Positions 5,937-49,716 of a stretch of 64,000 nt of DNA are shown in pieces. Positions within the stretch are counted from its first letter, which is position 1. Every line of letters begins with the position of its first letter. Source of the DNA: Elusimicrobiota bacterium. Lineage in GTDB: Bacteria > Elusimicrobiota > Elusimicrobia > UBA1565. The notes under the pieces are model-generated. The model saw nothing but the letters and a program-made list of their open reading frames with translations. It had not been told where the DNA came from and did not search any database. Made by a program: the position numbers and the translations under genes. The stretch covers positions 1 to 64,000 of the forward strand of contig JACPXC010000011.1 in assembly GCA_016196755.1 (NCBI GenBank). The letters run 5' to 3'.

Positions 5937-5939
5937 GGG

Positions 5940-6311: not shown

Positions 6312-6315
6312 GATC

Positions 6316-6690: not shown

Positions 6691-6696
6691 GGTCCG

Positions 6697-6702: not shown

Positions 6703-6717
6703 GCGGAAAGTCCGAGG

Positions 6718-6945
6718 CTAGGCCATACCCGGGATGGGCCCGCAGCGCTCGGCGACCCGCCGCAGGGTCATGCCGGAGTTCCGCAACTGCACCACCCGGG
6801 CGACCGGCTTGCCCGAGCGCTTGGAGATGGCCAGGACTTGCCGGACCTCTCCCCACCCCAGGCCCTGGCCGCGCAGGGCCGCCGCCTCATGGACGCTGAT
6901 GCCGAACTCGGCCGCCACCGCCGCGGCCCGTTGGAATTCTCCCAT
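6718..6945 (-). CDS. small helical-repeat protein, function unknown
   Basis: A 75-residue protein with two or three copies of a short helical motif: a hydrophobic helix, then G-x-GW or G-M-T, then a helix (for example ALRGQGLGWGEVRQVLA and LRNSGMTLRRVAE). The pattern looks like small helix-turn-helix-like repeats, but no named family is claimed. It sits between the twin receivers and the ATP synthase region. Base composition matches the neighbours. It could be a small DNA- or protein-binding factor. Confidence 0.55.
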   Translation of the reverse strand: MGEFQRAAAVAAEFGISVHEAAALRGQGLGWGEVRQVLAISKRSGKPVARVVQLRNSGMTLRRVAERCGPIPGMA

Positions 6946-7016
6946 GAGGTAAGGATGGATGAGCGCCCCAAGGTCGGCGTCAGATAGCGGTCAAGAAAGT
7001 CTCAAATCCCCCCTGA

Positions 7017-9048: not shown

Positions 9049-9053
9049 CGCGC

Positions 9054-10831
<1,778 letters not shown>

Positions 10832-10849
10832 GTCGTTTCCTGGGAAGCG

Positions 10850-11758
<909 letters not shown>

Positions 11759-24689: not shown

Positions 24690-25349
24690 TCAGGCTTTCG
24701 CGAGGAGGTAGCCGACCCCGCGCAGGGTCTTGAGCCGCTTGCCCTGAGTCCCGAGCTTCTTGCGCAGCGCCGCCACGACCTTGTCGACGGCTTCGACGAC
24801 GGCGTCCGAGCCCAGGCGGTCGAGGAGGTCGCGGCGCTCGAACGCCTTGCCCGGCGCGCCGGCCAGCACGCTCAGGACGTCGAACTCGCGGGCGCTCAAG
24901 CCCCCCACGAGCTTCCATGACTTCCCGCGCCGGACGTGGACCTCACGCACGCGCGCGTCGAGCCTGAGGCCGTCGTCGGAGAAGAGCCCCGGGGGCTTGG
25001 CCGACGGGAACAGGCGCTTGAGGTGCGCGCGCAGGCGCGCTTCGAGCGCATCATCGGGAGCTCCTTGGTCGAAATAGTCGAGCGCCCCGCCGGCCAGCGC
25101 CGCCGAGAGGACCTGGGGTGCTGCCCCCACGTCCGCGCAGGCCACGACATGGAGCCCGGGGCGCTTGGCGCGATGGGCGCAAAGAGCATCCCCGCCCAAG
25201 AGCGACAGATCGACCAAGGCCAAGCCGCGTTCTCTAGGAAGCTCGTCTAAGCGGGACAACAGCGGGGCCGTCAGCCCCAGCGCCCGCCAAAGCCTTTCCC
25301 AGCGCGCGGCCCGCGCGCGAGGGCATACCGTCCACGTGGACAGTCTCAT
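24690..25349 (-). CDS. winged-helix regulator with degenerate receiver (motor operon)
   Basis: A 219-residue OmpR-like protein. The C-terminal winged helix (about 120-219) is well formed, with SAREFDVLSVLAGAPG, a recognition helix around VDKVVAALRKKLG and the GVGYLL wing. The N-terminal half has a receiver-like outline but no acidic pair and no switch lysine, so phosphorylation is unlikely. Its ATG overlaps the motB stop by four bases, so it is the last gene of the motor operon and may regulate it. A similar pseudo-receiver regulator is encoded at 51648-52361. Confidence 0.78.
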   Translation of the reverse strand: MRLSTWTVCPRARAARWERLWRALGLTAPLLSRLDELPRERGLALVDLSLLGGDALCAHRAKRPGLHVVACADVGAAPQVLSAALAGGALDYFDQGAPDDALEARLRAHLKRLFPSAKPPGLFSDDGLRLDARVREVHVRRGKSWKLVGGLSAREFDVLSVLAGAPGKAFERRDLLDRLGSDAVVEAVDKVVAALRKKLGTQGKRLKTLRGVGYLLAKA

Positions 25350-26035
25350 CCGCCGCGCAGGAGGCTGATCTCGATGCGGCGGTTCTTGGCCCGCCCCTCG
25401 GCCGACTTGTTGTCGCCCGCCGGCCGGTACTCGCCGTAGCCCACGCCGGAGATGCGGCGCGGGTCGACGCCGCTGGCCTCGAGCTGGCGGATGACGGCGT
25501 AGGCGCGCGCCATCGAGAGCTCCCAGTTGGACTTGTACGGCCCTTTGCGCACCGGCACGTTGTCGGTGTGACCCTCGACGCGGACCTCGTTTTTGAGATT
25601 GATCATGTCCTTGGCGATGGCCTCGAGGAGCGGCGACGCCGCCGCCTTGAGGTCGGCCTTGCCGGAATCGAAGAGCACGCCCTCGCCCAAGGACAACGAG
25701 ATGCGCTTCTCGGTGACGATGACGCTGGCGGAGGCCCCAAGCTCGCCGCCCTCGGCCTTGGCGGTCAGGGCTTGCCCCAGCACCAGCTCCTTGTCGGCCT
25801 GCTCGGCCTTCGCGGCCACGGCGGGGCTCACCCGCCCGCCGAAGACGCGCTGGATCTCGCTGAGCGACTTTTCGACCGGGTCCTGCTCCTCCACGTCCTT
25901 CGAGAGGCTAAATGAGAGCATCAAGAGGAAGAGGATCATGAGGTAGCTCATCATGTCCCCGTAGACGATGGCCCAGAGGGCGTTCTTGTTGAGGTGGCCC
26001 TCGAGCTCCTCTTTGCGGAAGCGGTAGACGGCCAT
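25346..26035 (-). CDS. motB: MotB-like stator protein with OmpA-type anchor
   Basis: A 229-residue stator subunit. A basic N-terminus precedes one membrane helix with the proton-carrying aspartate D27 (IVYGDMMSYLMILFLLM). A linker follows, then an OmpA/MotB peptidoglycan-binding domain (about 110-225) with VRVEGHTDNVPV and RISGVGYGEYRP. It should anchor a MotA ring to the cell wall and drive torque with the proton gradient. motA lies one base upstream. No flagellar filament, hook or export genes are nearby. Confidence 0.9.
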   Translation of the reverse strand: MAVYRFRKEELEGHLNKNALWAIVYGDMMSYLMILFLLMLSFSLSKDVEEQDPVEKSLSEIQRVFGGRVSPAVAAKAEQADKELVLGQALTAKAEGGELGASASVIVTEKRISLSLGEGVLFDSGKADLKAAASPLLEAIAKDMINLKNEVRVEGHTDNVPVRKGPYKSNWELSMARAYAVIRQLEASGVDPRRISGVGYGEYRPAGDNKSAEGRAKNRRIEISLLRGG

Positions 26036-26036: not shown

Positions 26037-26774
26037 TTATTTGTAGGAGAGGAGCCTGCGCTCGAGCACCAGCGGCACGGTCCCCTGCATCATCCCGATG
26101 ACGCCTTCGACGACCATGGCCTTCATCTTGATCTCCTGCCACAGGCGCATGCGCAGCTTGCCGGCGATCGGGATGCAGAAGAGGTTCGCGAACATGATCC
26201 CGTAGAAGGCCGAGGTGATCGCCACGGCCATCGAGCCGCCGACCGCCTTGGGGTCGGCGATCTGCTGGAGGACCTTGATGATGCCGAGCAGGGTCCCGAT
26301 CAGGCCGAACATCGGCGAGACCACGCCGGCCGTGCGGATGACGTTGATGACCTCGTTGGCGCGGTCGACCTGGTTGTTGACCTCGGTCTCGAGCACGCGG
26401 CGGACGAACTCGGGGTTGTTGTACTCGAGCGCCGTCGTCGCCGCCGCTCCCAAGAAGCCCCCCGCCGCCTGGGGGTCGGCCGCCCGCAAGGCCTGCAGGC
26501 CGCCCTGCTGGACCTGCTCGGAGAGCCGCACGATGATCGGCACGAGCTCGGCCGGGTCGGCGTAGGGGTCGGACCGGAACATGTTGAGGCAGGCCAGGAA
26601 GGTGTCCTTCACGTAGACGATCGGCGTGTTGATGAGCATCGCCGCGAAGGTGCCGCCGAACACGATGAGGATCCCGTGGGCGTTGACGAAGATGGAGCCC
26701 ACCTCGCCGCTGATCACACCCAGCGCGATCAGAAATAGGATCCCCGCCGTGCCTGCGATGGTCGCTAGGTCCAT
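26037..26774 (-). CDS. motA: MotA-like stator protein
   Basis: A 245-residue protein with four membrane helices: one at the N-terminus, one around HGILIVFGGTFAAMLI, and a pair near 145-200 (VVSPMFGLIGTLLGI and MAVAITSAFYGIMFANLF). The layout is that of MotA/PomA, with a large cytoplasmic loop. In that loop the segment usually written AR(K/R)xGxLALE reads VQQGGLQALR, so the Arg and Glu that contact FliG are Gln and Arg. The start ATG overlaps the stop of the coiled-coil gene by one base. It forms the stator with the MotB encoded next. Confidence 0.9.
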   Translation of the reverse strand: MDLATIAGTAGILFLIALGVISGEVGSIFVNAHGILIVFGGTFAAMLINTPIVYVKDTFLACLNMFRSDPYADPAELVPIIVRLSEQVQQGGLQALRAADPQAAGGFLGAAATTALEYNNPEFVRRVLETEVNNQVDRANEVINVIRTAGVVSPMFGLIGTLLGIIKVLQQIADPKAVGGSMAVAITSAFYGIMFANLFCIPIAGKLRMRLWQEIKMKAMVVEGVIGMMQGTVPLVLERRLLSYK

Positions 26775-27871
26775 CAGGTCTCCCCCATTTGCCGCTTCAC
26801 CCAGGCCTGCACGAGAGCCAACTGCTTGTCGAGCTCGGCCTGCAGCTCGCTCATGCGCTTGTGCGCCGCCGCCAGCCGGCCGCGCATCTCGACGGCGGCC
26901 TCGGAGCCCTGAGGCTCGTCCTTCAAGGCCGACACCAGCCGGCTCATCTCGAGCTGGAGCGTGTCGCGCTGGCGGACACACTCTATCACGGCCTCCAGAG
27001 CCGCTTCAACAAGGAGCTGGGCCCCGCCCGAGCGTTCGAAGCGCGACGCCGAGAACGACATCTCGCGCACGAGCTCGGTCTCGCGCCGCACCGCCTCGGC
27101 GCGCTCCTTCTCGCGCGCCTTCTGGGACTCCTCGAGCCGCGCCTCCAAGTCGCCGACCCGCCCCAGGACGACCGCCAGCTGGTCGGCCGGCAGACCCGGA
27201 CCGGAGACCGGCGGCAGCGGGCGCTCGCCCGCCGCGGGCGGCTCGGGCGGCGCGGCCGCGGCGCCGAGCTGGGCTTCCAGGCGCCGGGTCAGCTCCGCGC
27301 GCGCCTCCTCGCTGTGGACCGCCCGCAGGACGTCCTCGGCCGGCACCATGCGCAGCTCGGCCAGGGCCAGGCGGGCCTCGAGCTCCTTGACGCGCTGGGC
27401 GGAGGAGGAGGCGCTCTCCCTCAAGGTCTTGTCATAGGCCGCCGCGCGCTGGGACTCGCGGATCGAGCGGAAGAGCTCCTCGACCTCCCCCTGGGCGCGG
27501 CGCTGGGCGTCTTCGCGCTCGCGCAGGAGCATCCCCGAGCGCAGGGCCTCCTGCTGGGCCATGTCGAGCTTCTTCTCGAGCAGCTCGACGCGCGTGTGGA
27601 GGAAGAGCGCCAGCTCCGTGGGCGCTTGCGGCGCCTCCGGAGCGGGCAACGCGGGCAGGGCGGGCGGCACCTCCTCGGTCGGCGGCGCCTCCTCCATGGC
27701 CGGCGGCGCCCCCTGGGCCAGCCTCTCCTCTATCGAGGCCAGCTTGGCCTTGAGCGCCTCGAACTCCGCCGAGGGTACGGCCGCCTCGCCGGGGGCGGCC
27801 GACATCGGCGGGGCCTCCTCGGGGGGGGTCTCGCCGCGCAAAGTCGCCAGGAGGCGGTCTACCTTGGCCAT
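26774..27871 (-). CDS. coiled-coil protein between rotor and stator genes
   Basis: A 365-residue soluble protein with Pro/Ala-rich stretches (about 15-90 and 205-230) separated by long charged helices likely to form coiled coils (about 90-200 and 240-360). No family is recognised. Position, four bases after the rotor fusion gene and overlapping motA by one base, argues for a structural or regulatory role in the motor, perhaps joining rotor, stator or a cytoplasmic partner. It has no FliH, FliJ or FliM signature that can be seen. Confidence 0.7.
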   Translation of the reverse strand: MAKVDRLLATLRGETPPEEAPPMSAAPGEAAVPSAEFEALKAKLASIEERLAQGAPPAMEEAPPTEEVPPALPALPAPEAPQAPTELALFLHTRVELLEKKLDMAQQEALRSGMLLREREDAQRRAQGEVEELFRSIRESQRAAAYDKTLRESASSSAQRVKELEARLALAELRMVPAEDVLRAVHSEEARAELTRRLEAQLGAAAAPPEPPAAGERPLPPVSGPGLPADQLAVVLGRVGDLEARLEESQKAREKERAEAVRRETELVREMSFSASRFERSGGAQLLVEAALEAVIECVRQRDTLQLEMSRLVSALKDEPQGSEAAVEMRGRLAAAHKRMSELQAELDKQLALVQAWVKRQMGET

Positions 27872-27874: not shown

Positions 27875-30334
27875 CTATGCCGCCTGGGCCTCGGTGAAGG
27901 CGGGCGGACCGTCGAGGGCGCCGCGCCTCTCCACCGGGTTCTGGATGCGTCCCGAGCCGGCCAGCTTCATGACGACCCCCGCGATCTGCTCCTGGGCTTT
28001 GTCGATGGCTTGGGTCGTGGGCCGCGCCCCGGCGATCATCTGCTCGAGGATGGCCCAGGTCTTGGGCAGCATCTGGGCCTTGAGGCTCTCGCGCACGCGC
28101 GGCTCGCCCTCGTGGAGCGCCGCCGCCCACTGCTCGAGGCTTACCTGGCCCATGACCAGCGACCAGTCGCGCTGGTCGAGGAACGCTACGTCCTCGAAGA
28201 GCAGGACCCGCGAGCGCACCACCGCGTAGAGCTCGGGGTCGCGCAGCTCGAGGAGCGAGAGCAGGTCGCGCTTGGAGCGCATGTCGGCGGCCTCGATGAG
28301 CTCGAGCAGTTCGCGGCGGCCGCCCACCGCGCTGTCGAGGCGCCGTTCGAGCTCGTCCTTGACGGTCTGCACCACGTCGGGCTCGACGAACTTGATCGAG
28401 CCCATGCTGAGCAGGACCTCGCTGTAGGCCGCCGATGAGAGGCGGGCCAGGAAGGCCTTGCGCACCTCGGGCTTGAGATGGGCCGCGATCAGGGCCAGGT
28501 TCTCGGGCTCTTGGCCGCGCAGGATCTCGAGCAAAGTGTCGATCTGGTGCAGGCCGACGTCGAAGGTGACCTTCTGGACCTGGGCCTCGACGGCGGCCGC
28601 CGCCGCGGCGGCACCCTCCTTGTCGCCCTCCTCCCCTTCCGTGCCCTCTTTCTTCTTCTCGTCCTGGCCGAAATCCATCTGGAGCTGGTGGGCCTGGGCC
28701 TGGGCCATCGAGTCCATGGCCTCGGCGAGCTTGAGGAAGCAGGCCGCGACGACGACCAACGTGATGAGGGTCATGAGGGCGATCAGGCCGTACTTAAAGA
28801 GCAGGCCCATCGCCTCGGGCTGGTACCAGATCGTCTTCCAGGCCGGGGCGAACTTGGCCGGGGCGATGTCGAGCGTATCGTCGCGCTGGCGGTCGAGCCC
28901 CAGCACGTCGGGCAGGATCTTGGCGATGCGGTCGCGCTCCGGTATCGTCACCGACTCGTCGACGACCACGGTGATGGCCAGGCGCTTGACGAAGGAGGTT
29001 GGGAAGGACTGCTGGCGCTCGTAGGACTTGGTCTGCCCGAAGCCGGGGGCCTGGGCCTGGGGGTCGGGGATGCCGGGCAAGAGCTCCTGGCCGCCGGGGC
29101 TTTCGGCGCCGATGTTCTGCCAGAGGAACACCGAGCCCGCGTCCTTGTCGGCCGCCCCGCCGGTCTTCACGTCGAACTTCTCGATGCGCGTGAAGTCGAG
29201 CGTGGCGTTGACGATGACGCGCGAGCGGCTCGGCCCCAGGATCGAGAGCAGGACCGACTCGGCCCGCGCCTCGAGCGAGCGCTCGAACTTGGCCTTCTCC
29301 TCCAAGGGGATGGTCTGCTGGGCGCGCGCCGCGCCGCCCAAGGAGGCCAGCAGCCCCAACGCCAGGACGGCGGAGGCGGCCAGGACGGGCATGCGGGCGG
29401 GCTTGAGCGGCACCTTGTACCAGAAGGTCGAGCCCTTGCCGAGGCCCGGCGAGTCCACTCCGATCTCGCCGCCGTGGCCGCGGACGATCTCGGTGGCGAT
29501 GGCCAAGCCCAGGCCCCAGCCCTTCTTCTTGTTCTTCATGTCCTGGAATTGGGACTGGTAGAACTTCTCGAAGACCTTCTTGCGCTCGGAGGGATGGATG
29601 CCGGCGCCGTTGTCCTTGACCGCCAGAGTCAGGACGCGCCCGACGACCTTGGCGCCGAGCTCGACCTTGCCGCCCGACGGGGTGAACTTGACCGCGTTGT
29701 TTAGGAAGTTCATGAGCGCCTGGACCAGGCGGAAGCGGTCGCCGACGATCTCGACCGGGGGGACGACGGCCGGCGGGACCAGGACCACCCCGTTCTGCCT
29801 GGCGATGACGTCGATGGCCGGGACGATGTCTTCCAGCATCTGCGCCAAGGGAAACGGCTTGCGCTCGAGGCGCAGCTTGCCGGCCTCGATGACGGCGAGG
29901 TCGGTCAAATCGCCCATGAGGCGGTTTATCTGGTCGGTGCCGCGTACGATGTAGTCGACGTACTTCTTCTGCTGGCCGCCCAGCTCCTGGCGCGAGAGCA
30001 TCTCGCCGAAGCCCTTGATCGAGGCCAGCGGCGTGCGCACGTCGTGGACCGCCATGGACAGGAACTTAGATTTCATCGAATTCAAACGCTCGAGCTCCTC
30101 GTTGGAGTCCTGCAGGCGCGCGGAGAGCTTCTCGAGCTCCACCTTGCGCCTGGCGACCTGGCTCTGCGCCATAGCGAGCTTGGTCATGAACTGTTCCAGT
30201 TCCTCGCGGTCTCGGCGCCGCCGGCCCGAGTACTTCCCGAACTGAAAGAAGCCCGAGAGCTGGCTCACGACCAGCATGCTCGCCGCCAGCACCAGGAACA
30301 TCACCGGCAGAAGGACGACGATGACTACCTCCAT
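27875..30334 (-). CDS. sensor histidine kinase fused to FliF-C and FliG-like domains
   Basis: An 819-residue protein with three modules. Residues 5-30 are a membrane helix; 45-310 a histidine kinase with H97 (VHDVRTPL), N-box LNNAVKF, DNGAGI and GWGLGLA. A second hydrophobic helix (315-338) looks like a signal peptide. Residues 345-500 match the FliF C-terminal periplasmic region (KRLAITVVVDE and the following helix), then a membrane helix (511-534). After an acidic/Ala linker, 597-700 match FliG middle domain and 705-770 FliG-C (LLFEDVAFLDQR). The FliF N-terminal ring domains and the FliF-binding FliG-N are absent. The topology is consistent throughout: kinase inside, FliF part outside, FliG inside. 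A GGAGGG ribosome-binding site precedes the ATG. An internal ATG at 29392 could also yield the rotor part alone. Confidence 0.85.
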   Translation of the reverse strand: MEVVIVVLLPVMFLVLAASMLVVSQLSGFFQFGKYSGRRRRDREELEQFMTKLAMAQSQVARRKVELEKLSARLQDSNEELERLNSMKSKFLSMAVHDVRTPLASIKGFGEMLSRQELGGQQKKYVDYIVRGTDQINRLMGDLTDLAVIEAGKLRLERKPFPLAQMLEDIVPAIDVIARQNGVVLVPPAVVPPVEIVGDRFRLVQALMNFLNNAVKFTPSGGKVELGAKVVGRVLTLAVKDNGAGIHPSERKKVFEKFYQSQFQDMKNKKKGWGLGLAIATEIVRGHGGEIGVDSPGLGKGSTFWYKVPLKPARMPVLAASAVLALGLLASLGGAARAQQTIPLEEKAKFERSLEARAESVLLSILGPSRSRVIVNATLDFTRIEKFDVKTGGAADKDAGSVFLWQNIGAESPGGQELLPGIPDPQAQAPGFGQTKSYERQQSFPTSFVKRLAITVVVDESVTIPERDRIAKILPDVLGLDRQRDDTLDIAPAKFAPAWKTIWYQPEAMGLLFKYGLIALMTLITLVVVAACFLKLAEAMDSMAQAQAHQLQMDFGQDEKKKEGTEGEEGDKEGAAAAAAAVEAQVQKVTFDVGLHQIDTLLEILRGQEPENLALIAAHLKPEVRKAFLARLSSAAYSEVLLSMGSIKFVEPDVVQTVKDELERRLDSAVGGRRELLELIEAADMRSKRDLLSLLELRDPELYAVVRSRVLLFEDVAFLDQRDWSLVMGQVSLEQWAAALHEGEPRVRESLKAQMLPKTWAILEQMIAGARPTTQAIDKAQEQIAGVVMKLAGSGRIQNPVERRGALDGPPAFTEAQAA

Positions 30335-30386: not shown

Positions 30387-31946
30387 TCACTCGACCCCCT
30401 GGGCGCTCATGAACGCCTTGAGCTTCTCGTCGCCCGGGTTGATCTCGAGCGCCTTCTTCCAAGCCGCGGCGGCGCGCGGCTTGTCGCCCATCGCGAAGTA
30501 GGCCGAGCCGAGCCGCGTCCAGGCCGCCGCGTTGTTGGGCTCGAGCCACAAGGCGTCCCGCAGCGACTCGACGGCGGCCGGGAAGCGCCGCTGGTAGACC
30601 GCGTCCACACCCTGCTTCATGCGCAGGGCCGCCAGGCGCGCCGGGGGCAGGATCGAGTCGCGGTCTACCTTGCGGCCGGTGAGCCGGCCCATGGCGTCTA
30701 GCAGGCGGCGGTAGCCGGCGTGGCGGTTGATGGTCCCGGCCGCGGCGTGGGCCAGGAGCATGGCCCGGTCCTCCTCGCCGTCGAGCCAGGCGCTGACGAC
30801 CTGGTAGACCATGAAGGCCGCCGGGTTGTCCTGGCGGAAGGACTCCTGGTCGCCCGGATGGGCCTCGAGGTCGAGCTCCTTGACGAGGCGCCGCAGGCGC
30901 GCGGCGCGCTCCTTCCAGGACCCGTCGCCGACGTTGGGGTCGATGCCGAGCGCGGTGTCGAAGTCCTTGGAGGCGCGCAGATAGTCGCGCTTCTGGAGTT
31001 CGCTCTGGCCGTTGGCCAGGTACTCTCCGGCGAAGGCCTGCATCTTGGGCGACTTGCCCTCGGCCAGGGCCTGGCGCTGGCCGAAGCGATAGCCCACCGA
31101 GAGGCGCTGGGACATCCCGAGCGTCGGGTGGCTCAGGAGCGCCAGGTCGAAGCGGTACTTGGAGCGGAAGTGCAGGCCGCCGCCGAAGGAGAGCTGGCGG
31201 TCCTCGAGGCCGGCGCGCAGGGCGCCGATCCCCCAGGCGTACTCGGTGCCGACCCGGAACTCGCCGTCGGGCGAGACGTCGGCCGCCAGCGAGAGCGGCC
31301 CCACGAGGCGGTAGGCCGCCCCGACGCGGACCACCAGCCCCAGCTTGTCGTCGGTGTCGCCCTGCGAGAGCGCGAAGGCGTTTTGGACCACCGCGCCCAG
31401 CATGAGCTTGCCCGTGTTGAACGGCCCGGCCTGAAAGCCCAGGTCCGCGCCGATGAGGCGGTCCGAGGAGCCGGCCAGCGCGCGATTGAGCATCTTGCCC
31501 TTCACCCCGACCGAGAGCGCGGGATGGAAGACCCCGCGCCAGCCGTGGGCCACGCTCATCGCCGTCTCCGACCAGCCGAAGCCCCCGCTCTTGTTGTTGA
31601 GCTCGTCGCGCCCGTCGGCGCCCGAGATGCCGAGCCGGACGAACTCGAGGCCCCAGCCGCCGGCGCGCTTCTTCTTGTTCTGGGCGTAGCCCAGGTAGTC
31701 GTAGGTGGCGCCCTCGAAAAGGTTGGCGCGCATGAGGGTGACTTCGCGCGCGGGCAAGAGGCCCAGGCCGGCGGGGTTGTAGTAGACCGAGGTGACGTCG
31801 TTGACGCCGGCGGTGTTGGCGCCGCCCATGGCCAGCCCGCGGGCGTTGGCGCCGAACTGGAAGATCTCGCCGGGGCGGCCGCCGAGGTCGGCGCGGGCGG
31901 GCGCGGCGACGAGGACGGCGAGCAGGGCGGCGAGCACGCGGCGCAT
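30387..31946 (-). CDS. PorV-like outer-membrane beta-barrel with C-terminal TPR domain
   Basis: A 519-residue exported protein. Signal peptide 1-19; then a PorV/PorQ/FadL-like outer-membrane barrel (about 25-310) with the typical ANARGLAMGGA and YYNPAGLGLL motifs; then helical TPR-like repeats (about 325-515), for example AAWTRLGSAYFAMGDKPRAA. In Bacteroidota PorV shuttles type IX cargo to the attachment complex, so a role in exporting FlgD-Ig-tailed proteins is suggested. The start overlaps the stop of the stand-alone FlgD-Ig gene by one base. The TPR part would lie in the periplasm or at the surface. Confidence 0.8.
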   Translation of the reverse strand: MRRVLAALLAVLVAAPARADLGGRPGEIFQFGANARGLAMGGANTAGVNDVTSVYYNPAGLGLLPAREVTLMRANLFEGATYDYLGYAQNKKKRAGGWGLEFVRLGISGADGRDELNNKSGGFGWSETAMSVAHGWRGVFHPALSVGVKGKMLNRALAGSSDRLIGADLGFQAGPFNTGKLMLGAVVQNAFALSQGDTDDKLGLVVRVGAAYRLVGPLSLAADVSPDGEFRVGTEYAWGIGALRAGLEDRQLSFGGGLHFRSKYRFDLALLSHPTLGMSQRLSVGYRFGQRQALAEGKSPKMQAFAGEYLANGQSELQKRDYLRASKDFDTALGIDPNVGDGSWKERAARLRRLVKELDLEAHPGDQESFRQDNPAAFMVYQVVSAWLDGEEDRAMLLAHAAAGTINRHAGYRRLLDAMGRLTGRKVDRDSILPPARLAALRMKQGVDAVYQRRFPAAVESLRDALWLEPNNAAAWTRLGSAYFAMGDKPRAAAAWKKALEINPGDEKLKAFMSAQGVE

Positions 31947-32326
31947 CAGTGCCGGACCCCCACCTTGAGGACCAGGACGTCGCCGCCGGCGCGCAGGGCC
32001 GCTAGGTAGATCCCCTTGCCGAGCTTGCGGCCGGTCTCGTTGGTGCCGTCCCAGGTGACCTCGTTGAGCCCCGCCCGCCCGCCCACGGCGCCGGCCGCGT
32101 ACGAGCGCCGCAAGACCCGGACGCCGAAGACGGTGTAGACCGAGAGCTCGGCCGGGAAATCCTCGGCCAGGCGCCAGCGCAGCGTGGCGCGGCCGGTCCG
32201 GGAGTCGAAGGGGTTCGGATAGCTTGCCGGCTCGGTGATGAAGTCTGCGCGCTTGGGTGTGGTGAACGCCGCCACCGGAGCTAGGGCCAAGGCCGCGGAC
32301 GCCGCCGCAGCCCATAAGATGCGCAT
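31946..32326 (-). CDS. stand-alone exported FlgD-Ig (type IX-like C-terminal) domain
   Basis: A 126-residue protein: signal peptide (about 1-21), then a single FlgD-Ig-like domain with YPNPFDSRTG, LSVYTVFGVRV, VTWDGTNETGRKLGKGIY and the ending VLKVGVRH. The giant protein upstream ends with the same domain (YPNPFDSRKR, WDGADDSGTKVAKGMY, LKVGVIH). Here it is not attached to any cargo, which is unusual for a sorting tail. It shares a promoter motif with the giant gene and is coupled to the PorV-like gene. It may act as a competitor, cap or sensor for the export machinery; that is inference. Confidence 0.82.
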   Translation of the reverse strand: MRILWAAAASAALALAPVAAFTTPKRADFITEPASYPNPFDSRTGRATLRWRLAEDFPAELSVYTVFGVRVLRRSYAAGAVGGRAGLNEVTWDGTNETGRKLGKGIYLAALRAGGDVLVLKVGVRH

Positions 32327-32390: not shown

Positions 32391-32413
32391 AAGCGCTGTA
32401 TTTACTAGCGCTT
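32391..32413 (-). terminator. terminator of the giant gene
   Basis: On the minus strand, AAGCGCT, a nine-base loop, AGCGCTT and further T residues. The left arm overlaps the TAA stop of the giant gene. Stem of seven pairs, short T-run. Confidence 0.5.
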
Positions 32414-35400
32414 AATGGATGACGCCGACCTTCAGAACCGCCTTGGCCCCGCCCGAGGTGATGACCATGATGTACATGCCCTTGGCCACCTTGGTCCCCG
32501 AGTCGTCGGCGCCGTCCCAGGCGACGGTGTTGGAGCCCGCCACGCCGCCGCTTGAGCCCGGCGCGAAGCTCATCTCGCGCAGCAGCCGCCCGAAGACGCT
32601 GTAGACCTTGATCGACACCTCGGCGTTAGCACTCAGCGCGTAGTGGATGTTCCCCGCGCGCTTGCGCGAGTCAAACGGGTTCGGGTAGAGGCTGGCGTCG
32701 GTGATCCCGTCCTTGGGCAAAGGCCCGAGCTGGACCTGCACCGGGTCGCTGGCGCTCGAGAGCACGCCCGAGCCGGTGACCGCGCTGACGCGCACAAACA
32801 GAGTCCCCGCCGGCAGACCGCCGGCTTGGAACGAATTGCTCGTGACGAGCGAGTCGGTCGACACCGCCAGGACGCGCAGCTCGGCCGGCCTGGCCCCGGG
32901 GGCGGCCGCCAGCGTCATCGCTTTCACGCTGGTCTTCTCGCCGGTCTTCGCGTTGATCCACTGCGGGCTGGCGCCGGTGCGGTACTCGACTAGGTAGCCG
33001 ATGATGCCCGAGGGGCCGCCCGGGATGTTGGCCCAGGTCACGAGCAGAGCGCCCGAGCCCGTCGTCACCGACGGGGCCGGAGAGAGCGGGACCTGGAAGT
33101 CCATGAGGATGCCGTCGGAGACCCCGACCGGGCTGTCGAAGGCGAAGCTCGACTGGGTCTTCACCGCGACGTAATATGTGGTGGCCTGGTTGAGGGCGAA
33201 GCCCGTGGCGCGCACCGTGGTCAGGGCGGCCGCGATCGCCGTCCAGCCGCGCACGTCGGTGCCGCCGGCCGTCGTCCCCACCGCGTAGAAGGCCCCGGCC
33301 AGCGTGCCGCTGCCCACGCTCGATACCCAAGTGAAGTCGAGGCCCTCGAAGTCGCTCGTCGAGGCGCCGGCGTCGGTCACCACCGGGCGCGAGGGGGTCT
33401 TGGCGTCGAGCACCGGAGCCGCGCCGGTGTTGAACGGCAAGCCGGCCGCCCCCACCGTGTCCGGCGAGCCCAGGGTGAAGTCGGCGGTCTGCAGCGAGAG
33501 CCGGATGTCGGCGCCGACCGTGGCCGAGATGTTGGGCTGGACGGCCAGGAAATAGGTCTGGGTCGCCACCCCCACCGTCTGCACCGTCGAGAAGAAGACC
33601 GAGGCCTGCGAGCCCGAGAACGTGGCGCTGCCCACGTAGAGGTCGGCCGAGCCAAGCGCCAGATCGCCGTCCACGTCGCGCCAGACGCCGACGAAGTCGA
33701 TCTCACCGGCGCCGAGGTTGCCGTTCTGGCGCACGACCAGCGCGCTCCAGCTCACGCGGTTGCGCGACGCCCTAGTCGAGAGGCGCGCCAAGGCCTGGCG
33801 CGCGCCCTGGTTGACCCCTCCCACCACCAGGTCGGCCGGCGTCACCACCAGCTCCTCCTCGAGCTTGCGCAGGGTAGCGTTGGCATCCGACTGGGCCGGG
33901 AAGCCCGCGGGCACGACGAAGTTGGGCGAGGAGACGCTCAAGGACGCCGTCGACTGAAGAAGGACCGCGAAGGTGCGGCCGGGCTCCGCGAACGGCGCCG
34001 GGTCGACGGTGAGGAGGTAGCGCTTCTGGCTGGTGCCCACGTCCTGGACCGAAGCGAAGCTCAGGACGGCGACGCCGCCCAGGAAGGCATTGAGGCCCGA
34101 GGTGATCTTGGTGTCGGTGCCGACGTCGACGACGCCGTTGATGTTCGCGTCGTGCCAGAGGCTTATGGCCTTGATGTCGGAGTCCGCGGCGCTCCCGGTC
34201 GAGCGCACGGTCAGGGCGGACCAGGTCAAGGCGAACTGGGTCGTCTGCACGGCCAAAGACATCAGCACCTGCTCGGTGGCGGCCTGCTTGAGCTCGCCCG
34301 GCGCGAGGTTCGTGGCCGTCACGAACAGGCCGGCCTGCGTGGCGACCACGGCCGCGTTGGTCGACTGCAGCGGGAAGCCCGCGGTGGAGACCGTGTCGGG
34401 CGTCTCGACGCGCAGGTCGCCGGCCGCCGCGATGCGCGCCCCCGCGGTGTCGCCCGCGGTCGCCGTGGTCTTGAAGTCGTAGGTGACGAAGTAGGTGACC
34501 GTGGCGACGGTGATGGTCTGGGTCGAGAAGCCCAGGAGGGCGGTCCCGCCGCTGAACACCGTCGTGCTAAGCCGCTCGTCGAGCGAGATGTCGAGCGTGC
34601 CGTCGCCGTCGGCGTCGCGGTAAAGCTTGACCGACGGCACGTGGCCGTCCTGGCCCGTGCCGGTCCGCGTCACGCGCAACTGGTTCCAGCGCGCCGTGAA
34701 GGCCGCCGTGCGGACCTTCAAGGTCAGCATCGGCACGTTCGGGGTCCCCTGGGTGACCGTCGCCGGAGCCGAATCGGTCCCTACCACGAACATCGTCGTG
34801 GGCGGGGCGTTGACGTTGAGCGCCGCCGACACGAAGTTCACGCTCGGGTCGACCCGATTCGGCGCGTCGACCGTGAAGAAGGCGCCGGTCGAGGCGCGCA
34901 CCACGACCGTGCGCGCGGGGACGGCCGCCGTGGAGAGGTCGAGGACGAGGAAGTAGCGCTTCGGCGCGGTCCCCAGGACCTGCGGGGTCGAGAACGACAC
35001 GACCACGCTGGCCGGGCCGTTGCTGCCGAAGCGCTGGCCGGAGGAGGTCACCAGCAGATAGTTGTTGAGGTTCGAGGAGTCGAAGTTCCCCGTGTCGTTG
35101 GTGTCGTAGTAGAGCTTGACCTGCTTGACGTCCGCGTCGGCCGCGGTGCCGGCCTGGTCGACGCGCAGGCTCTGGAACGCGGCGTTCGAGACGTCGGTCC
35201 GCAGCGCCAGGCTCATAAACGGCACGTCGATGGCGCCGGGCTCCGCGCCGACGCCGGGGACGACGCTGGCGGTCGTCACGGTGACCGTGTTCTGGAACTG
35301 GTTGACCGGCACGAGGCCGGTCTGGATGGGGAAGGCCGTGGCCGTCGAGACCGTGTTGGGCGCGATGAGGTTGAAGGAGGCCGTCGTCGAGATCCGCACG

Positions 35401-38400
35401 CCGAGGGTCTTGCCCGACTCCGCACCCGCCGCCACGCTCAGGGTCACGAAGTAGGTCTTCGTCGAGGCCGAGACGGTCTGGACCTGGGGCAAGGTCAGCG
35501 TGGCCGTGCTGTTGGAGAAGACGTCGGCGCCCCCCGTCACCCGCGAGTCCACGGCGACGTCGAAGGAACCGTTGCCGTCGAAGTCCCGGAAGACGTTCAC
35601 GGCCGAGACCGCCGAGTCGGGGGCGGTCCCCAGGCGCTCCACCGAGAGGCCCAGCCACGAGAAGTCGTTCTTGTCGCTGATGACGTCGAGCCGCAGCATC
35701 GCGGCGTGCTGCTGGCCCTGGAGCAGCGCGCCGGGGGAGACGTCTTTGATGGCGTTGGTGATGACCATCCGGTTGACCGTGGCCTGTACGGTTCGCGAGG
35801 AGCTCTCGATCGGGAGGTTGCCGGCCACGGTCGTGCCCGAGTTGCCCGCGCGCACGTCGCCGGCGTTGAGCTTCATGCCCAGCGTCACCCCCGGCGCGGC
35901 GGCGGGCTCGACGACGTAGGCCAAAAAGAACACAGCACTCGTCCCGGAGAGTATGGTCTGGGTGTCGATGTCGACGACGGCCAGGCCGCCCGAGTAAGGT
36001 GCTGAGCCGACCCGCGTGTCGAGCACGGCACTCAGACCCTGCCCGTCGGTCGTCGCGTCGCGCCAGACCTCCACCGCCGCGATGTCGGAGCCCTGCCCGT
36101 TGCCGGTCAGCCGGGCGGTGACCCGGTTGACCTGGGCCGCACCCACGTCGACGGTCATCGTCGCCCGCAGGATGGTGAAGCGCTCGCCCTGGACGTAGGC
36201 TGCCGGGGTCTCATCGACCGCGGCCACGGTCAGGACGTTGTTGAGGATGACGCTAACCGTGCTCGAGAGCACGGCCGCCGAGAACGCCACGGTGTCGGCC
36301 AGGTTCTGGAGCGTGACGGCCGAGGTCGAGGCCAACCCGAGGCGGAAGACACTGTCCTGAGGGGCGTCCGCCGCCAGGCTGACGGTGATAAAGAAGCGCC
36401 GGGCCGACGTCGTCACCGTCCGCGAGGAGACCTGAAAGCCCGTGATCGACATCGTCGCGGTGTTTCCTCCCCCGAAGGCGTCGATGTCGCTGGTGAGCCT
36501 GATGTCGCCGGGGCCGAAAAGGCCGTCGACCGGGTCGGCGTCGCGCCAGAGGTTGATCGAGCGAACCTTGCTCGGCGGCGTCGTGCCGGTCATCGTCACC
36601 GTGACGCTCGATATGATCGAGGTCCCGGTGTCGGTGACGGCGCGCAGTTCTAGTACGGGGATATCGTTGCTGCCGGCCTGCATCGCGGCCGGGGCCAAGC
36701 TCGTGGGGATGATGTTGAGGACGTTGGCGCCGTCCGAGACCGGGATGGGTGCTACGACGGCCGGGAAACTGCCCTGAGCGCGCGCCGGGTGCTGGAGGCC
36801 GACGCTGGTCGTCGAGCTTATCTCGAGCCCCACGGTGTCGTCGGTGACGGCCCCGGCGTTCATCTTGAAGACCACGTGGAACGTGCTGGCCGCCACGTCG
36901 AGCGGGATCCCGGCCCCGGCGAGGACGAGCACGGCCTCGCCCAGCGCGAGGCCGGCCGCGGTCTGCTGGGTGTCGCCGCCCGAGAACACCCCGTCGCCGT
37001 CGGCCTCGGCGTAGAGCTGGACCTGGTCGACGCTGGAGTCGGGTGCGGTCCCGGTCTTGCGCGCGCGCAAGGACAGCAGGCGCGAGGTGCTGCCCGGCTT
37101 GGAGGCCAGGCGCAGGGTCAGCATCGGGACGAAGGCGCCCTGCAGGGCCGAGGGCGGCGCGGCGATCTGGGTGGTCAGGAACACCGTCCCGAAGGTGGCC
37201 GTGGCCAGCTCCACCGTGGGGGTCGAGACGTTGAGCAGTTGGTCGCGCGACCAGACCCGCACCCAGTAGGTGGTGGCGTCGATCAGGCCCGTGAAGGTAT
37301 AGGTGGTCTGGGCGATGAATCCCGAGGAGGACAGCGGGGCGGCGAAGGCCTGTGACGTGGAGGCCTCGAAGAGGAAGTCGCGCAGGCCCGAGCCGGCCGT
37401 GTTGTCGGTGCCCGTCGAGATCACCGCGATCTGGTCGGTGGCGGTGGGGGCCAGCGAGAGGACGACCGGCGTGGGCACCGATGTGTCGACGCGCACCGCG
37501 AAAGGACCCATCGTCCGGACCGAACCGGCGCGGTCGGGAGCGAAGAACTGGACCTGGTTCGTGGCCAGGCAGGGCGAGACCTGGCCGCAGACCGCCGTCA
37601 CGGTCGACTGGCGCAGGGGGAGACCGACGATCTGGATCGTCTCGTCCGAGGTCGCGCCGTTATTGCCCGTGAACGCCAGGCGCGGCCCCGCCCCGAAGGT
37701 CGAGGAGACCGCGCTCCAGGAGGCCCCGGCGTCGGTGGAGAACGCCACCGCGAAGGGGGCCCCGTCGGCCTCGCGGCGGACCGCGGCGGCCGAGAGCGGC
37801 GCCGAGAAGAGCCGCACCTCGTCGAGGAAGCCCTCGTAGGCGTCGATCGAGCCGATCCCGGTCACCCCGTCGGCCAAGAGGCGCAGGCGGGTGTCGCCGG
37901 CCGAAGACGCCCCCGAGCAGGAGGCCGCCAGCTCCCCATCGACGTAGAGGCGGTTCTCGTTGGCGCCGGGGTCGGCCACGAAGGCCACGTGCTGCCAGGC
38001 CCCCAAGGGATAGGTCTGCGCCGTGTTGAGCGCGCAGCCGCCGGCACCCGTGGCGCGCGCGCCGTAGAGCACGCGGCCCTGGGCGGACTGGGCGTAGACC
38101 TGGTTGCGGACCGTGGCAAAGAGGGTCATCAGGGCCGAGGCGTTCCGCGTGGGCTTGGCCCAGCCGGCGACCGTGAGGCCGGTCCAGGTCGTCGCCGGGG
38201 AACTAGCTATATTGACCGCGAAGGTCCCCGAGCCGCGCAGGCCGAGGCCCCGGTAGCCGGAGCCGGAGCGGACGATGGCCGCGTCGAGCGTGGCGTTGTG
38301 CCCCCGCCCCGAGAAGTCCAGCGACGACGTGCCCGAGTCCTCGAACGACCAGGCCCCGACCCGGGCCTGGCTCCCCAACGGCTCCAAGAGCAGGCCGGAG

Positions 38401-41400
38401 GCCGGGTCACGCACCGTGAACTCGATGGTCGAGCCGGCCGCCAGGTCGGTGAACTGCGACTCGGCCAACGCCCCGCCGGTCGAGTTGAGGTGGCGATAGG
38501 CGCTAGTCGAGGGTGCGGCGGGGTCGACGGCGAAGTTGACGGTCGGGGAGAACGCCGAGCCCACCGAGAAGGCGTTGAGCGCCTTCACGCGCCAGTAGTA
38601 GGTCGTGTCGTTGGCCAAGGACGCCGTGGCACCCAGCAGGTAGTGGGCGGTCGTCTGGTTGATCGTCAGCGCCGTGAAGTCGGGGCCGGTCGACACCTGG
38701 ACCTGGTGCTGGGGCATCGTGCTGGCCTCGATCCAGGCGAAGTCGGGCAGGGTCTCGCGGACCCAGCGCGCCGGGGCCGGGTAGTAGGCCGTGGGCTGGC
38801 TCAATAGGCTGTCGACGAGGACGGCGAAAGGGCCGGCCTGGCCGACCCGCCCGCCGCGGTCCAGCGCCGCGAAGCGCACCTGGTTGGTGGCCGTGCAGGA
38901 GGGGTTGCCCGCGCAGACCGTGCCGGTCAGCGAGGGCTCGAAGCTCAGGCCCGAGGCCGAGAGGGTCTGGGGCGCCGCGCTGCCCTCCGCCCCGCTAAGC
39001 GAAGTGACCAGCGGCGTCGACACGAACACCTCGGCGTTGCCGGAGGCGGGCTCGAGTCCGGCGTAGAGTCGGCCGCCGAAGGCGGCCAGGGCGCTTATCT
39101 TGTCGGCGGCGTTGGGCAGAGTGCGGACCAGGACCCAGCTCTTGGCGTCATAGGCGTAGAGCCGGCCGTTGGACGGCTCGGCGCTGGCCGCGTAGAGCCG
39201 GCCGGCGTGCACGGTCAGGACCGAGGACTCGGTCTCGGGCGGGTCGTTGGAGACCGTCCAGGCTTGGCCGTCGAACTGGCTGATGATGCCGGAGTTGTTG
39301 GTGGCCGCGAACAGCTTGCCGTCGTAGGCCTTGAGCGCGAGGATCGACGCGCTGGCGGTGAAGGAGAGGCTCCAGGTGCTCGTGTCGAGTACGTAGACGT
39401 TGGGATTGGCCCCGGCGAAGAGCCGGCCGTCATATACTCCCAGCGACTGCACGCCCACCCCCGGGGGCGCGGCGAAGACGTGCAAGAGCTCCCAGCGCCC
39501 GTTGGAGGGTTCGTACTGCATGAGGCGCCCCGAGCTCAGACCGGCATAGAGCCGCCCGTTGTAGGCTTCGAGGGTCTGGACGTCGTCGGGGGCCGTAAAG
39601 CTGGCCGACAGGCTCCAGGCCGCGCCGTTGAACTCCCAGACCTGGCCGTTGGCCGACAGGCCGGCGTAGAGCTTGCCGCCGAAGGCCTTGAGGGCCAGGA
39701 CCCTCTGCGCCCCGAGGGTCGTCGAGAGGGCCCAGACGCTGCCGTCGAACCGCCAGACCCGGCCGGTGTCGGCGCCCATGAACAAGGCACCCCCGTAGCG
39801 CGCCAGGGAGCGCGCCGCGGTAGCCCCCGCGTCGGTCAGCGTGGGGCCCCAGGAGCCGTCGTTCCAGAGCCCGGCGCCGTTGGTCGTGTACATCACGCCA
39901 TAGGGGACGGCGTCGTCGAGCTCGGCGTGGGCCAGTCCCGCCGGGCCGGTGTCCTGCACGGTGAGCTGGACCGTGACGCCGGCGGCCAGGGTGATGCCGA
40001 TAGACTCGCCGACGAGGCCTCCGGTCGAGTTGAGCGAGGCGAAGGCCGAACCGGCCGGCGCCAAGTAGTCGGTGACGAAGCTCGACACCGTCAGCGGCTG
40101 GGAGTAGATCCCCAGGAAGTCCCGGGCGCGCACGCGCCAGTAGTAGGTCGTGCCGTGGAGCAGCGAGAAGGTCGAGACATAGACCCCCTGCGTGAAGGCC
40201 GTGGCCGTGCCGGCGATGACGACCGGCGTCGACACCGCGATGGCGGGCGAGGAGAAGTCGGCTTGGTCGTCGGCCTCGAGCAGGAACAGCGCTCCGGCCC
40301 CCATCCCGGCCGCGGTCGTCGTGCTGGGGCCGCCCCAGGCGAAGTCGGGACGGGTGCTCACGAAGACGCCGGGGGCCGGCAGGGTCGGAGTCGACACCGC
40401 CGCGGCGGCCACGGTGTCGACGAGCAGCGTGAAGGGGCCCGCCAGCGTGAAGTTGCCGCGCCGGTCCGCCGACAGGAAGCGCAGGAGGTTCGTGCCCAGG
40501 GAGCCGACGGCCGCGGTCGTGGAATGCGCCGGCGCCAGGTCGCGGACCGTGAGGACTTCCGGTCCGGCCGAGCCGTCCACCCCGGTCTGCGCTATATAAG
40601 GGAAGCCCGCGCCGGGGAAGGTGGCGCTGACCACGTTCCAGGCGGCCCCGGCCGTCGTCGAGTACTCCACCGCGAAGCGCCCGGGGACGCCGCGGGCGAA
40701 GTCCGCGGCCACCTCGTCGGGTCCGGAGGCGGTGGAGAACACCTTGACCTCGTCTAAGTCGCCGTTGAAGAAGGCTTCGGCCACGGCGGTGTTGCGGATG
40801 CCGGCTCCGACCGAGAACGCCATCGTCCCGCCGCCCGAGTTGCCGCTCCAGCCTTGGGAGTGGCGCAGGACGCCGTTGATGTAGAACCAGGCCTTGGTGC
40901 CCTGCTGGACGACGGTGACATGCTGCCAGACCCCGTTCTGGATAAGGCCGGCCGGGCTCAAGACCCCGCCGCCGGTGGCGTTGGTCAGGCGCAGGGCGCC
41001 GGTGTTGTTGACCCAGACAACCCAGTTGCTTCCGCCCGGCGTCAACGGCGCGCCGACGGCGGCCAGCACCTGGTTGACGGAAGCCGTGGGGCGGACCCAA
41101 GCCGAGACGGTGAAGGTCGAGGCCGGGGCGAACTGGAAAGCCGTGTTGGGCGCCGACATGTACTGCCCCGCTCCGCTCAGGGCCAGGCCGGCCCCGAAGG
41201 GCGTGAGTCCGTAGCGCCCGCCCACCAGCACGCCGACCGCACCCGCCGCCTCATCGAGCGGCGCGGCCCCGTGACGCTCGCTGAAACGCCAGGACGCCGC
41301 CGTCCCGGGACCGACCGTCAGAGCGTTGGCGGCCCCGAGGCCGCTGACCGTGTCGGCGGCCGTGACCTGGACCGTGACGCCTTGGCGCAGGTCGATCGGG

Positions 41401-44400
41401 CCGGTCTCGCTGAAGGCCCCGCCCGTCGAGTTGTAGACGAGGAAGGATGAGACCGTCGGCGAGGAGGTGTCGACCACAAAGCCCCCGACCGGCCCCCAGG
41501 CTCCATCGACCCCCAGCGAACTCCGCGAGCGCACCCGCCAGTAGTACGTCGTGCCCCCGGTCAGCGTGAAAGTCGAGAGGTAGACCCCGGTGACGCGGAC
41601 GAAGGCGGGGTCGGTGACCGCGGCCGGCGTGGCGACGCTGATGACGAGGCTGGGTGCTGCGAAGGCCGGGTCGGCGCTCGACACCTGCACGAAGAACTGG
41701 CCGCCCATGCCCTGCACCACGCTCGTCGACGGTCCAGTCCAGTAGAAGTCCGGGCGCGTGCCGGTGTAGCTGCCCGGCGCGGGAAGGCTGGGCGTGGAGA
41801 AGGCCACCGAGGCGTTGGTGTCGACGAGGACCGCGAACGGGCCCATCGTCCTCACGTTGCCGGCCACATCGGCGAAATGGAAGCGCGCCTGGTTCGTGGC
41901 CGAGCCCCCGGTCTGGGCCGAGGTCGAGACCGCCAGCGACAGGCCCGAGGCCGAGAGGGTCTGGTTCCCCGTGGCGCCGTGCGCGCCGGTCAGGGCCGCG
42001 TAGGGCCCCAGAGCCGGGACCGTCGAGTTGATGACGACCCAGGAGGCGCCGGCGTCACTCGAGAAGCTGACGTAGTAGGGGTCGCCGCGCAGCGCCGAGG
42101 CGGCGATTTCGGCGTCGGAGAACGCCCGCGCGCTCACGCGCGCCTCGTCGATGGCGCCGCGGAAACCTTGGCCCGCCTCGTTGTTGCCGATGGTTAGCGT
42201 CCCGGCCGCCGAGGCCTGGGCGCCGTAGGTCTGCGAGGCGACGCGGACGCCGTCGAGGTAGAAGCGTCCGACCGAGCCGTCGTAGGTGAGGGCGACGTGG
42301 TGCCAGACCCCGGTGCTGACCGCCGCCGACGTGGGGGTCGACGCGCAGCCCAGGTCCGCCCAAAGACGGCCGCCGAGGAGGCCGAGGCGGGTGGCGCTGC
42401 CGCAGGCGCCGTCGCTCCAGGAGACCGCCGCCTGCGTCCCCGAAGTCGAGACCGTGTTGATCCAGGCCTCCAGGGTACGCGCGGCGTTGCCCACCGGCAG
42501 TCCCGCGGGCGCGGCGCGCTGGGCGAAGGAGGCGGCGTCGAGCAAAAGCCCCGCGCCGAAGCGCCCGGGCCCCCGGCCCGGGGTCCCCGAAGCCGAGAGG
42601 GCGTTGCCCGCCGGACCCGAGTCCGCCCAGTTCCCCGAGGTCTCGTCGAGGTGCCAGAGGCTGACGGCACCGCTCGACGGGGCGTAAGGGGCCGGGCCGT
42701 CCACGTTGAGACCCGAGACGGCGTCCGAGACGACGAGCTGGACCGTGACGCCCGCCGCCAGGTCGCCGAACTGGGTCTCGGCCACCGCCCCTCCGGTCGA
42801 GTTGAGACTCAGGTAGGAGCCCCCGACCGGGACGGTGCGGTCGAGCCAGAACGGCCCCAGGTCCGTCTGGAGGCCGGGGTCGTCGAAGGTATCGAAGGCG
42901 CGCGCGTGGAAGTACCAGTTGCTGTTGTCGGAGGCAGCCGTCACCGTGGTCTTCCCGGAGCTCCAGGCCGGCAGCTCGCCGCCGTCGACCGCGCTGGCCG
43001 GCGACTGGTCCCAGCGCCAATGCAGGTGGTCGATGTTGCCCGAGCCGAAGGCGGCCCGGAACACCACCGAGGAGACGTTGAGCCAGGTCCCGCTCGAGGT
43101 GTCGGCCGAGACCAGGGCCTGGGCGGCGACGATCGGCGCCGTCCCCGAGGCCAGCGGGAAGACCGAGGCCGAGACCGTGTCGGTGGCCCCGGAGAGGACG
43201 AACTCGGCGCTCGAGACCAGGACGACGCCGATGTCGGCCCCGGTCTGGGCCGAGACCGAGACGTTCCAGGCCAGGAAGAAGGTGCGGGTGGAGGGGCTCA
43301 GGGTCTGGGAGGTCCCCGCCCCGGAGAGCGAGAAGGTGGCCTTGCCGAGCAGGAAGGACTGCCCCAGGGTCAGCGCGGTGTCGGACCCGGCGTTGAAGAG
43401 CCCGTCGCCGTCGTCGCGGTAGAGCTTGAGCTGGCTGACGCTCGAGGCCGCGGCCGTCCCGGTGGCGGCCACCGAGAGCTGGTCGAGGGTGATGAAATCT
43501 CCCCCGGTCCAAAGCCGCAGGCGCATGACCGCCACGTTCTGGTCGTTGCGGAACAGGGCCGGCGGCAAAAGCGGCGCGGCGTCGGCGAATAGGGTATCGC
43601 GCGCGTCGGTGAGCGCCGTGCCGGTCGAGCGCGCGTAGCCGGCCGCGCCCCCCTGGAGCGTACCGTCGATCCCGCTTATAGAGGAGTCCACGGCGCGGTT
43701 GGCCACGACCGGCGCGTCGAAGTGGTAGAGCACGAGAGCGCCGCTGGCCGTGTTGCGGCGCAGCGGGGGCAGTTCGGCGGGATAGCGCACGAAGGCCGTG
43801 AGGCGCGCCTCGTCGAGCTCGCCGATGAAGTAGGAGGCCACGCCCGAGCCGTTGGGCCCGCCGACCGCCAGGTCGCTGGCGCCGTCGGCAAGGGTGCCGC
43901 CCATGGCGCCTGAGTTCATCGGCACGCCGTCGACAAACAGCCGGCCCACGCCGGCGTCGAATACCGCGGCCACATGGTGCCAGCGGCCGTCGGTGACCGA
44001 TACCTGGCCCGAGCCGTTATCGGCGCAGAGCACGGAGGAGCCCACGAAAAAGCTCGGCACGCCCGCGGAGCAGCCCCCGGCGCCGAGCCACAGCCGGTAG
44101 CCCGCGTCGCCGCCGGCGTTGCCGCGGGTGATGACGGCCATGTTCGCCCGCGCGGTGTCGGTCGAGCGAAGCCAGGCCTCGAGGGTAAACTGGCCGATCC
44201 CGCCCAAGTCGAGCGCGGCGGCGTAGGGCGCGGTGACCCGGTCGTCGACGCCGTCGAAGGCCAGGGCCGGGAGGTCGGTCTGCTCGACGCCCGCCCCGCG
44301 TACGCGTACCGCCTCGCCGTCTAGGTGCAGCGCGATGGAGGCGCCCTCCACCGGGAGGAAGTCCGGCCGGACGGTCGCGCCGACGAAATAGGTGCGGGTC

Positions 44401-49664: not shown

Positions 49665-49672
49665 GCTATAGG

Positions 49673-49716
49673 AAGGTAGCCGGGGACCTGCCCCCAATCA
49701 CGAAAAAATCACGAAG
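49673..49716 (-). promoter_or_regulatory. promoter of the giant gene
   Basis: On the minus strand: TTTCGTGATTG with GTGATT (49696-49701), 17-bp spacer, TACCTT (49673-49678), eight bases, GTG at 49664. A further TTCGTGAT copy lies upstream. Nearly identical to the promoter at 32333-32376. Confidence 0.6.

Follow-up and report, generated by a model that had tools for sequence, protein, structure and literature searches.

The window analysed here is a stretch of 64,000 nucleotides from the genome of an Elusimicrobiota bacterium. Its minus strand carries an open reading frame that runs from position 30334 to position 27875 and encodes 819 aa without interruption (Table 1). An earlier note on this DNA had proposed that a histidine kinase, the C-terminal region of FliF and the middle and C-terminal domains of FliG are joined there in one frame, with coordinates that proved right and to which only the minus strand has to be added. 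Indeed, Pfam searches recovered HisKA (residues 87-152, 6.8e-17), HATPase_c (residues 198-311, 1.1e-23), YscJ_FliF_C (residues 364-495, 2.5e-7), FliG_M (residues 600-670, 1.6e-9) and FliG_C (residues 695-798, 6.9e-16), all above their gathering scores, and the gene is conserved. Upstream lie genes for a PorV-like protein, a small sorting-domain-like protein and a giant secreted protein, and downstream genes for a coiled-coil protein, MotA, MotB and an OmpR-type regulator.

Table 1 Features of the fused open reading frame and its neighbours, with positions in the window.
Feature	Positions	Strand	Basis
Whole fused ORF: histidine kinase, signal peptide, FliF C-terminal region (RBM3/collar), TM helix, FliG M and C	27875..30334	minus	819 aa, uninterrupted
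Histidine kinase part, residues 1-311	29402..30334	minus	Pfam; alignment with sister-group kinases encoded on their own (~313 aa); model
Junction, residues 312-339: signal-peptide-like segment ending ARA/Q, predicted signal peptidase I site Ala338/Gln339	29318..29401	minus	Sequence comparison
FliF C-terminal region, RBM3/collar, periplasmic, residues 364-495	28850..29245	minus	Pfam YscJ_FliF_C; Foldseek FliF RBM3, TMt about 0.6
Second FliF transmembrane helix, about residues 510-538	28721..28807	minus	One of the protein's most conserved segments
FliG middle domain, residues 600-670	28325..28537	minus	Pfam; PDB profile match
FliG C-terminal domain, residues 695-798	27941..28252	minus	Pfam; Foldseek match to FliG C of T. 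maritima, TMt 0.80-0.90
Coiled-coil protein without family assignment, in a conserved position between FliF-FliG and MotA/MotB	26774..27871	minus	
MotA/PomA-type stator subunit, 245 aa, start within a longer listed ORF	26037..26774	minus	Pfam MotA_ExbB 3e-23; PomA model 2e-43
MotB-type stator subunit, TM Asp27, OmpA peptidoglycan-binding domain	25346..26035	minus	
OmpR-type DNA-binding regulator, degenerate receiver	24690..25349	minus	Only Trans_reg_C found; alignment
Outer-membrane protein, PorV/PorQ-like, with TPR repeats at the C-terminus, start approximate	30387..31949	minus	NCBIfam PorV_fam 3.2e-17; adjoins the fused gene in all relatives with enough flank
Small protein with signal peptide and FlgD-Ig/sorting-domain-like fold	31946..32326	minus	FlgD_ig 3.8e-5, below cut-off
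Giant secreted protein of 5761 aa with repeats of FG-GAP and LamG-like type and a type IX type A sorting domain at the C-terminus	32412..49697	minus	Por_Secre_tail

The kinase part is laid out as one N-terminal TM helix, a long coiled coil, HisKA with H97 and HATPase_c. Its H97, N and G boxes are intact, in agreement with the earlier description of a complete kinase, and H97 is found in every fused copy whose N-terminus is present. Neither Pfam nor alignment revealed a sensor domain of its own: only the TM helix and the coiled coil precede HisKA, with no periplasmic sensor domain.

The rotor part was recognized by both profile and structure. A profile built from 31 related FliF-FliG sequences matched solved FliG (3.4e-36) and solved FliF (2e-6) in the PDB, although the FliG part alone found no match there as a single-sequence query. 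The AlphaFold model of the FliF-FliG part has a mean pLDDT of 75, and its Foldseek matches are the FliF RBM3/collar and the FliG M and C domains; residues 555-595 form a low-confidence linker. The predicted topology is consistent, as had been suggested. The full-length model is confident for the kinase and rotor domains; its junction, however, is poor (pLDDT about 38-55) and its pTM low (0.38), so that it does not fix the placement of the kinase relative to the rotor.

Several features of the flagellar proteins are missing from the fused frame. No Pfam match to the N-terminal RBM1-RBM2 region of FliF (YscJ_FliF) was found at E values up to 1, and there is also no room for it between residues 339 and 364. 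FliG_N gave only a sub-threshold match overlying FliG_M. The earlier note had ascribed the missing FliG-N to the covalent link; the domain is indeed absent, but FliF-FliG proteins encoded by separate genes have the same shorter form, so its absence is no consequence of the kinase fusion. In our own mapping through the profile match, of the E. coli FliG torque residues K264, R281, D288, D289 and R297, R281 alone has a like residue (Lys), whereas His, Gln, Met and Thr occupy the remaining positions. The fused protein is only partly a FliF/FliG family member, by virtue of the domains listed above, and lacks several defining features.

Across 341 genomes of the phylum Elusimicrobiota, the same open frame was found in 14 genomes besides this one (15 in all), which belong to three families (f1-f3) of one order. 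These 14 relatives are Elusimicrobia MAGs out of several independent projects, and distant members of the order that carry the fusion share about 40% identity. The concern that an assembly or base-calling error near 29370-29410 hides a stop codon is met by these genomes, which come from several unrelated projects and read through the same place. Moreover, the junction codons vary among the fused genomes, which shows that one error was not copied from genome to genome. One relative, G188, does have a stop at the junction; against 15 independently assembled genomes that read through it, such an error is extremely improbable. These data indicate that the fusion is conserved and old, and is no assembly error.

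In the sister families f8 and f12, the orthologous FliF-FliG protein is encoded by a separate gene (mostly about 500-560 aa), and the kinase by another gene close upstream in the same cluster. These separate kinases are ~313 aa long, mostly 54-57% identical, and have the same single N-terminal TM helix. In G188, the one member of the window's family without the fusion, the two genes are also separate, the kinase stop overlapping the FliF-FliG start as ATGA (L061, 6990-7155); this split looks like either a re-split or a retained ancestral state. The FliF-FliG tree requires two changes of state and its root is not fixed by the data. The history is most simply read from the sequences as one fusion at the base of the order followed by one split in G188. 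Relatives with a stop between the kinase and the FliF part, which the note would have taken as evidence against the fusion, thus exist in G188 and the sister group, next to 14 relatives that lack it. As the kinase and FliF-FliG are separate in the sister group and in G188, the covalent link is not essential.

Other apparent fusions were rejected. A second one in the same genome (contig C3) consists of two genes with a TAG stop between them. Apparent FliF-FliG proteins of 950-1200 aa in L090 and L091 have an extra N-terminus that looks like a neighbouring gene read out of frame, and the protein of such apparent length in L092 is a separate case with a run of unknown residues.

Comparison with the separate proteins clarified the nature of the junction. 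Separate FliF-FliG proteins start with a signal peptide whose last residue is in most of them a small one, before Gln and a conserved mature start. At the end of the junction, the fused proteins have Ala at -1, a signal-peptidase-allowed residue at -3 and, nearly always, Gln at +1, with the same mature start directly after. Mean identity across the fused proteins is 24% at the junction (with many gaps) versus 49% in the kinase TM helix and 53% in the FliF TM helix; within family f1, the corresponding values are 35%, 78% and 92%. The junction is also less hydrophobic, with a hydropathy of 1.1-2.15 versus 2.2-3.0 for true TM helices in nearly all copies. This comparison identifies the junction as the N-terminal signal peptide that FliF-FliG once carried. 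The membrane segment that had been noticed after the kinase is therefore a hydrophobic segment as described, but one that represents a former cleavable signal peptide with a conserved AxA/Q site, so the kinase and the rotor may be separated after synthesis. A pure linker helix would have no reason to keep AxA/Q amid such drift, which favours one product that is cut after insertion. Translation from an internal start was also considered. Met315 in the window is not conserved as a start of a separate FliF-FliG protein: two relatives have no ATG, GTG or TTG there, and others have one only within the hydrophobic stretch. Since several relatives lack a usable internal start and none has a Shine-Dalgarno or ribosome-binding motif, FliF-FliG must there arise from translation through the junction. 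The protein is probably synthesized as a single-chain precursor and cut at Ala338/Gln339 by signal peptidase I.

The main rival to such a cleaved precursor is a chain that stays whole, in which every rotor subunit permanently carries a kinase; rotation or load would then alter the kinase, or phosphorylation would alter the motor. The persistence of the in-frame fusion across the order at this level of divergence, the consistent topology and the intact kinase motifs all fit a lasting link, and in the model the junction segment could act as a TM helix. However, the junction has diverged as a signal peptide would while retaining its cleavage site, it is the poorly modelled segment of the chain, and the link is missing in G188 and in an entire sister group that has the same genes. 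We therefore regard the whole chain as an unlikely alternative, albeit one to be taken seriously. Prokaryotic polyprotein precursors with an internal signal peptide exist, for example the Bradyrhizobium FbcH precursor of cytochromes b and c1. In them, as in the protein studied here, a membrane protein is joined in frame to another protein that has kept its signal peptide and its cleavage site; their products, however, are cytochromes rather than a kinase and a rotor, and the cleavage proposed here is predicted from sequence. A search of the open literature on such a polyprotein precedent returned no paper.

The order of the operon is conserved: giant secreted protein, PorV-like/TPR protein, kinase-FliF-FliG, coiled-coil protein, MotA, MotB and OmpR-type regulator. 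In the 20 ortholog loci with enough flank, a histidine kinase and a PorV-TPR gene are nearby in all 20, and MotA and MotB in 19 each. The ion-binding TM Asp of MotB is invariant in 13/13 sequences compared and MotA resembles PomA, which suggests that the stator is likely active. The OmpR-type regulator, the only linked one, has a DNA-binding domain and a receiver without the usual acidic pocket. The rotor could pass on a signal by phosphorylation, as the note had proposed, though the degenerate receiver of this sole linked regulator counts against it.

The PorV_fam match of the PorV-like/TPR protein reaches 63 bits, below the curated cut-off of 90. The giant protein scores 32.9 bits against the NCBIfam Por_Secre_tail model (cut-off 23), while the Pfam model for the same domain stays below its cut-off; the protein ranges from about 1300 to 5800 aa among relatives, and it is presumed from its sequence to be a cargo or adhesin. 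A sorting-domain cargo gene is present in most f1-f3 loci. A small sorting-domain/FlgD-Ig-like protein is also encoded just before the PorV-like gene in distant relatives (L009, 15278-15640; L089, 10340-10729; L092, 9613-9999).

The genome holds four further FliF-FliG genes, on contigs C3, C25, C33 and C38 (L009, L011, L012 and L010, respectively), which encode signal peptides and have no kinase fusion. These genes also lie near MotA/MotB and PorV-like/TPR-type genes, in the case of C3 only by weak or more distant matches. Five FliF-FliG modules thus occur in one flagellum-free genome. In another genome (G125, L086), the FliF-FliG gene is duplicated in tandem within one operon (5714-7417 and 9050-10906).

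The earlier note had compared the frame with the FliF-FliG fusions of Salmonella and spoken of a rotor, but the genomic setting contradicts a flagellar one. No FlhA was detected in this genome, which is 100% complete, nor in 55 of 56 genomes of the order, and the FliMN_C model found neither FliM nor FliN in this genome; both models recovered their targets in four control genomes. Because FlhA and FliM/FliN are absent and MotAB is encoded beside PorV-like and type IX-type genes, we conclude that the rotor is not flagellar. A full FlhA gene does occur on contig C59 of G187 (L093), in the same family, where a true flagellum and contig contamination are both possible. The FliF-FliG-MotAB module might alternatively be the decaying relic of a lost flagellum, a reading consistent with the absence of FlhA, FliM and FliN and with mostly altered torque residues. 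It is largely refuted by conservation: all five FliF-FliG copies in this genome are intact, most of them beside MotA/MotB, the operon is conserved across families, and the MotB Asp and kinase motifs are invariant. We consider a relic very improbable.

Type IX secretion has been described as confined to Bacteroidota (e.g. PMC7906972). In Flavobacterium, GldLM motors power type IX export and gliding (PMC8986121), and the response regulator PorX, once phosphorylated, binds to GldL/PorL, a protein of the motor (PMC10951265); by analogy, a kinase in such a system would not be strange. The present genome encodes a SprA-like protein of 1850 aa (L137, contig C22, 6483-12035) that scores 144 bits, below the curated cut-off of 200. 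SprA/Sov-like proteins of about 1800-2000 aa occur in 292/341 Elusimicrobiota genomes, many of them without detectable FliF-FliG, and in 145 of the 153 genomes that have FliF-FliG. Strict co-occurrence of the two was not borne out, the SprA-like proteins being far more widespread, and the translocon therefore does not need a FliF-FliG motor everywhere. A GldM model, searched without a positive control, gave no match in 56 genomes. The module could be a true motor with another envelope task, such as Tol-like maintenance or cell-surface remodelling, and have no tie to type IX-like export. That SprA-like proteins occur without the module and that the PorV-like and SprA-like matches lie under their cut-offs would suit this explanation, which we nevertheless think improbable given the adjacent PorV-TPR gene in every ortholog locus with enough flank, the cargo genes in most loci of families f1-f3 and the presence of a SprA-like protein in nearly all FliF-FliG genomes.

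We propose that the frame encodes a ring subunit of a non-flagellar rotary envelope machine, made in one chain with a dedicated histidine kinase, driven by MotAB, probably cleaved and tied to a type IX-like apparatus, a proposal that we rate about equally likely to be right or wrong as a whole. The ancestral signal peptide would thread FliF through the membrane, after which signal peptidase I would probably cut at the predicted site and the kinase and rotor would part. A bare rotor ring would be built from periplasmic FliF-RBM3 (the collar), the TM helix and cytoplasmic FliG-M/C, and MotA and MotB, encoded just downstream, would turn it by ion flow. Torque would probably reach the periplasm via the collar and then the PorV/SprA-like outer-membrane parts or the giant surface protein. 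The type IX-like apparatus, comprising the PorV-like/TPR protein and the SprA-like translocon, may export or move the giant protein encoded just upstream, and the sensor-less kinase, set beside the ring in a fixed ratio, may report on or adjust the motor. What counts against this proposal is that most torque residues have been replaced, that neither the SprA-like nor the PorV-like score reaches its cut-off, that SprA-like proteins are phylum-wide and that the regulator's receiver is degenerate. The broader scenario, in which Elusimicrobiota without flagella have turned FliF-FliG and MotAB into the motor for type IX-like secretion or gliding and synthesize every rotor subunit together with a kinase in a single chain, is tentative and somewhat short of even likelihood.

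If this proposal is right, the protein would act as a flagellar-type rotor within a type IX-like context. As in the flagellar rotor (FliF MS-ring plus FliG), the RBM3/collar and the second TM helix are present, here followed by FliG M and C in one chain, with MotA/MotB encoded beside them; a full-length FliF-FliG fusion has been made in the laboratory in Salmonella (PMC6079021). In contrast to the flagellar rotor, no RBM1-RBM2, FliG_N, FliM/FliN or FlhA was found, a kinase stands in front, and the FliM-binding EHPQ motif and most torque charges are altered. With GldLM, the GldKN ring (PMC8986121) and PorX/PorY (PMC10951265), the system would share a MotAB-related proton motor, PorV-like and SprA-like proteins, sorting-domain cargo, a giant surface protein and a histidine kinase link, but here MotA/MotB and FliF-FliG would stand in place of GldL/GldM and GldK/GldN, the organism lies outside Bacteroidota, and the SprA and PorV matches are remote. 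No paper on FliF-FliG with a kinase or on this operon was found in the open literature (excluding most subscription journals and all preprints), and none on Elusimicrobiota with FliG or type IX.

More than the covalent link itself, what makes the locus interesting is that a FliF-FliG-MotAB module with a dedicated kinase is conserved in the absence of a flagellum. The conserved kinase-rotor gene with its retained signal peptide would be a rare bacterial membrane polyprotein in which a signalling enzyme is coupled to a motor. In a recent survey, 11% of non-motile species had rotor proteins but no filament, and whether these proteins serve another purpose was left as a question (PMC12199754). The present module, a minimal ring of FliF-FliG with MotAB that lacks genes for flagellar export and shares its operon with genes for a PorV-like and a giant sorting-domain protein, offers a concrete, conserved and testable answer. 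Our results suggest that flagellar rotor parts have been reused in a different cell-surface machine in this group of uncultured, non-flagellated bacteria. If true, this would show flagellar motor parts working outside the flagellum, give type IX-like export a different motor, and reveal in Elusimicrobiota a rotary machine distinct from both the flagellum and GldLM.
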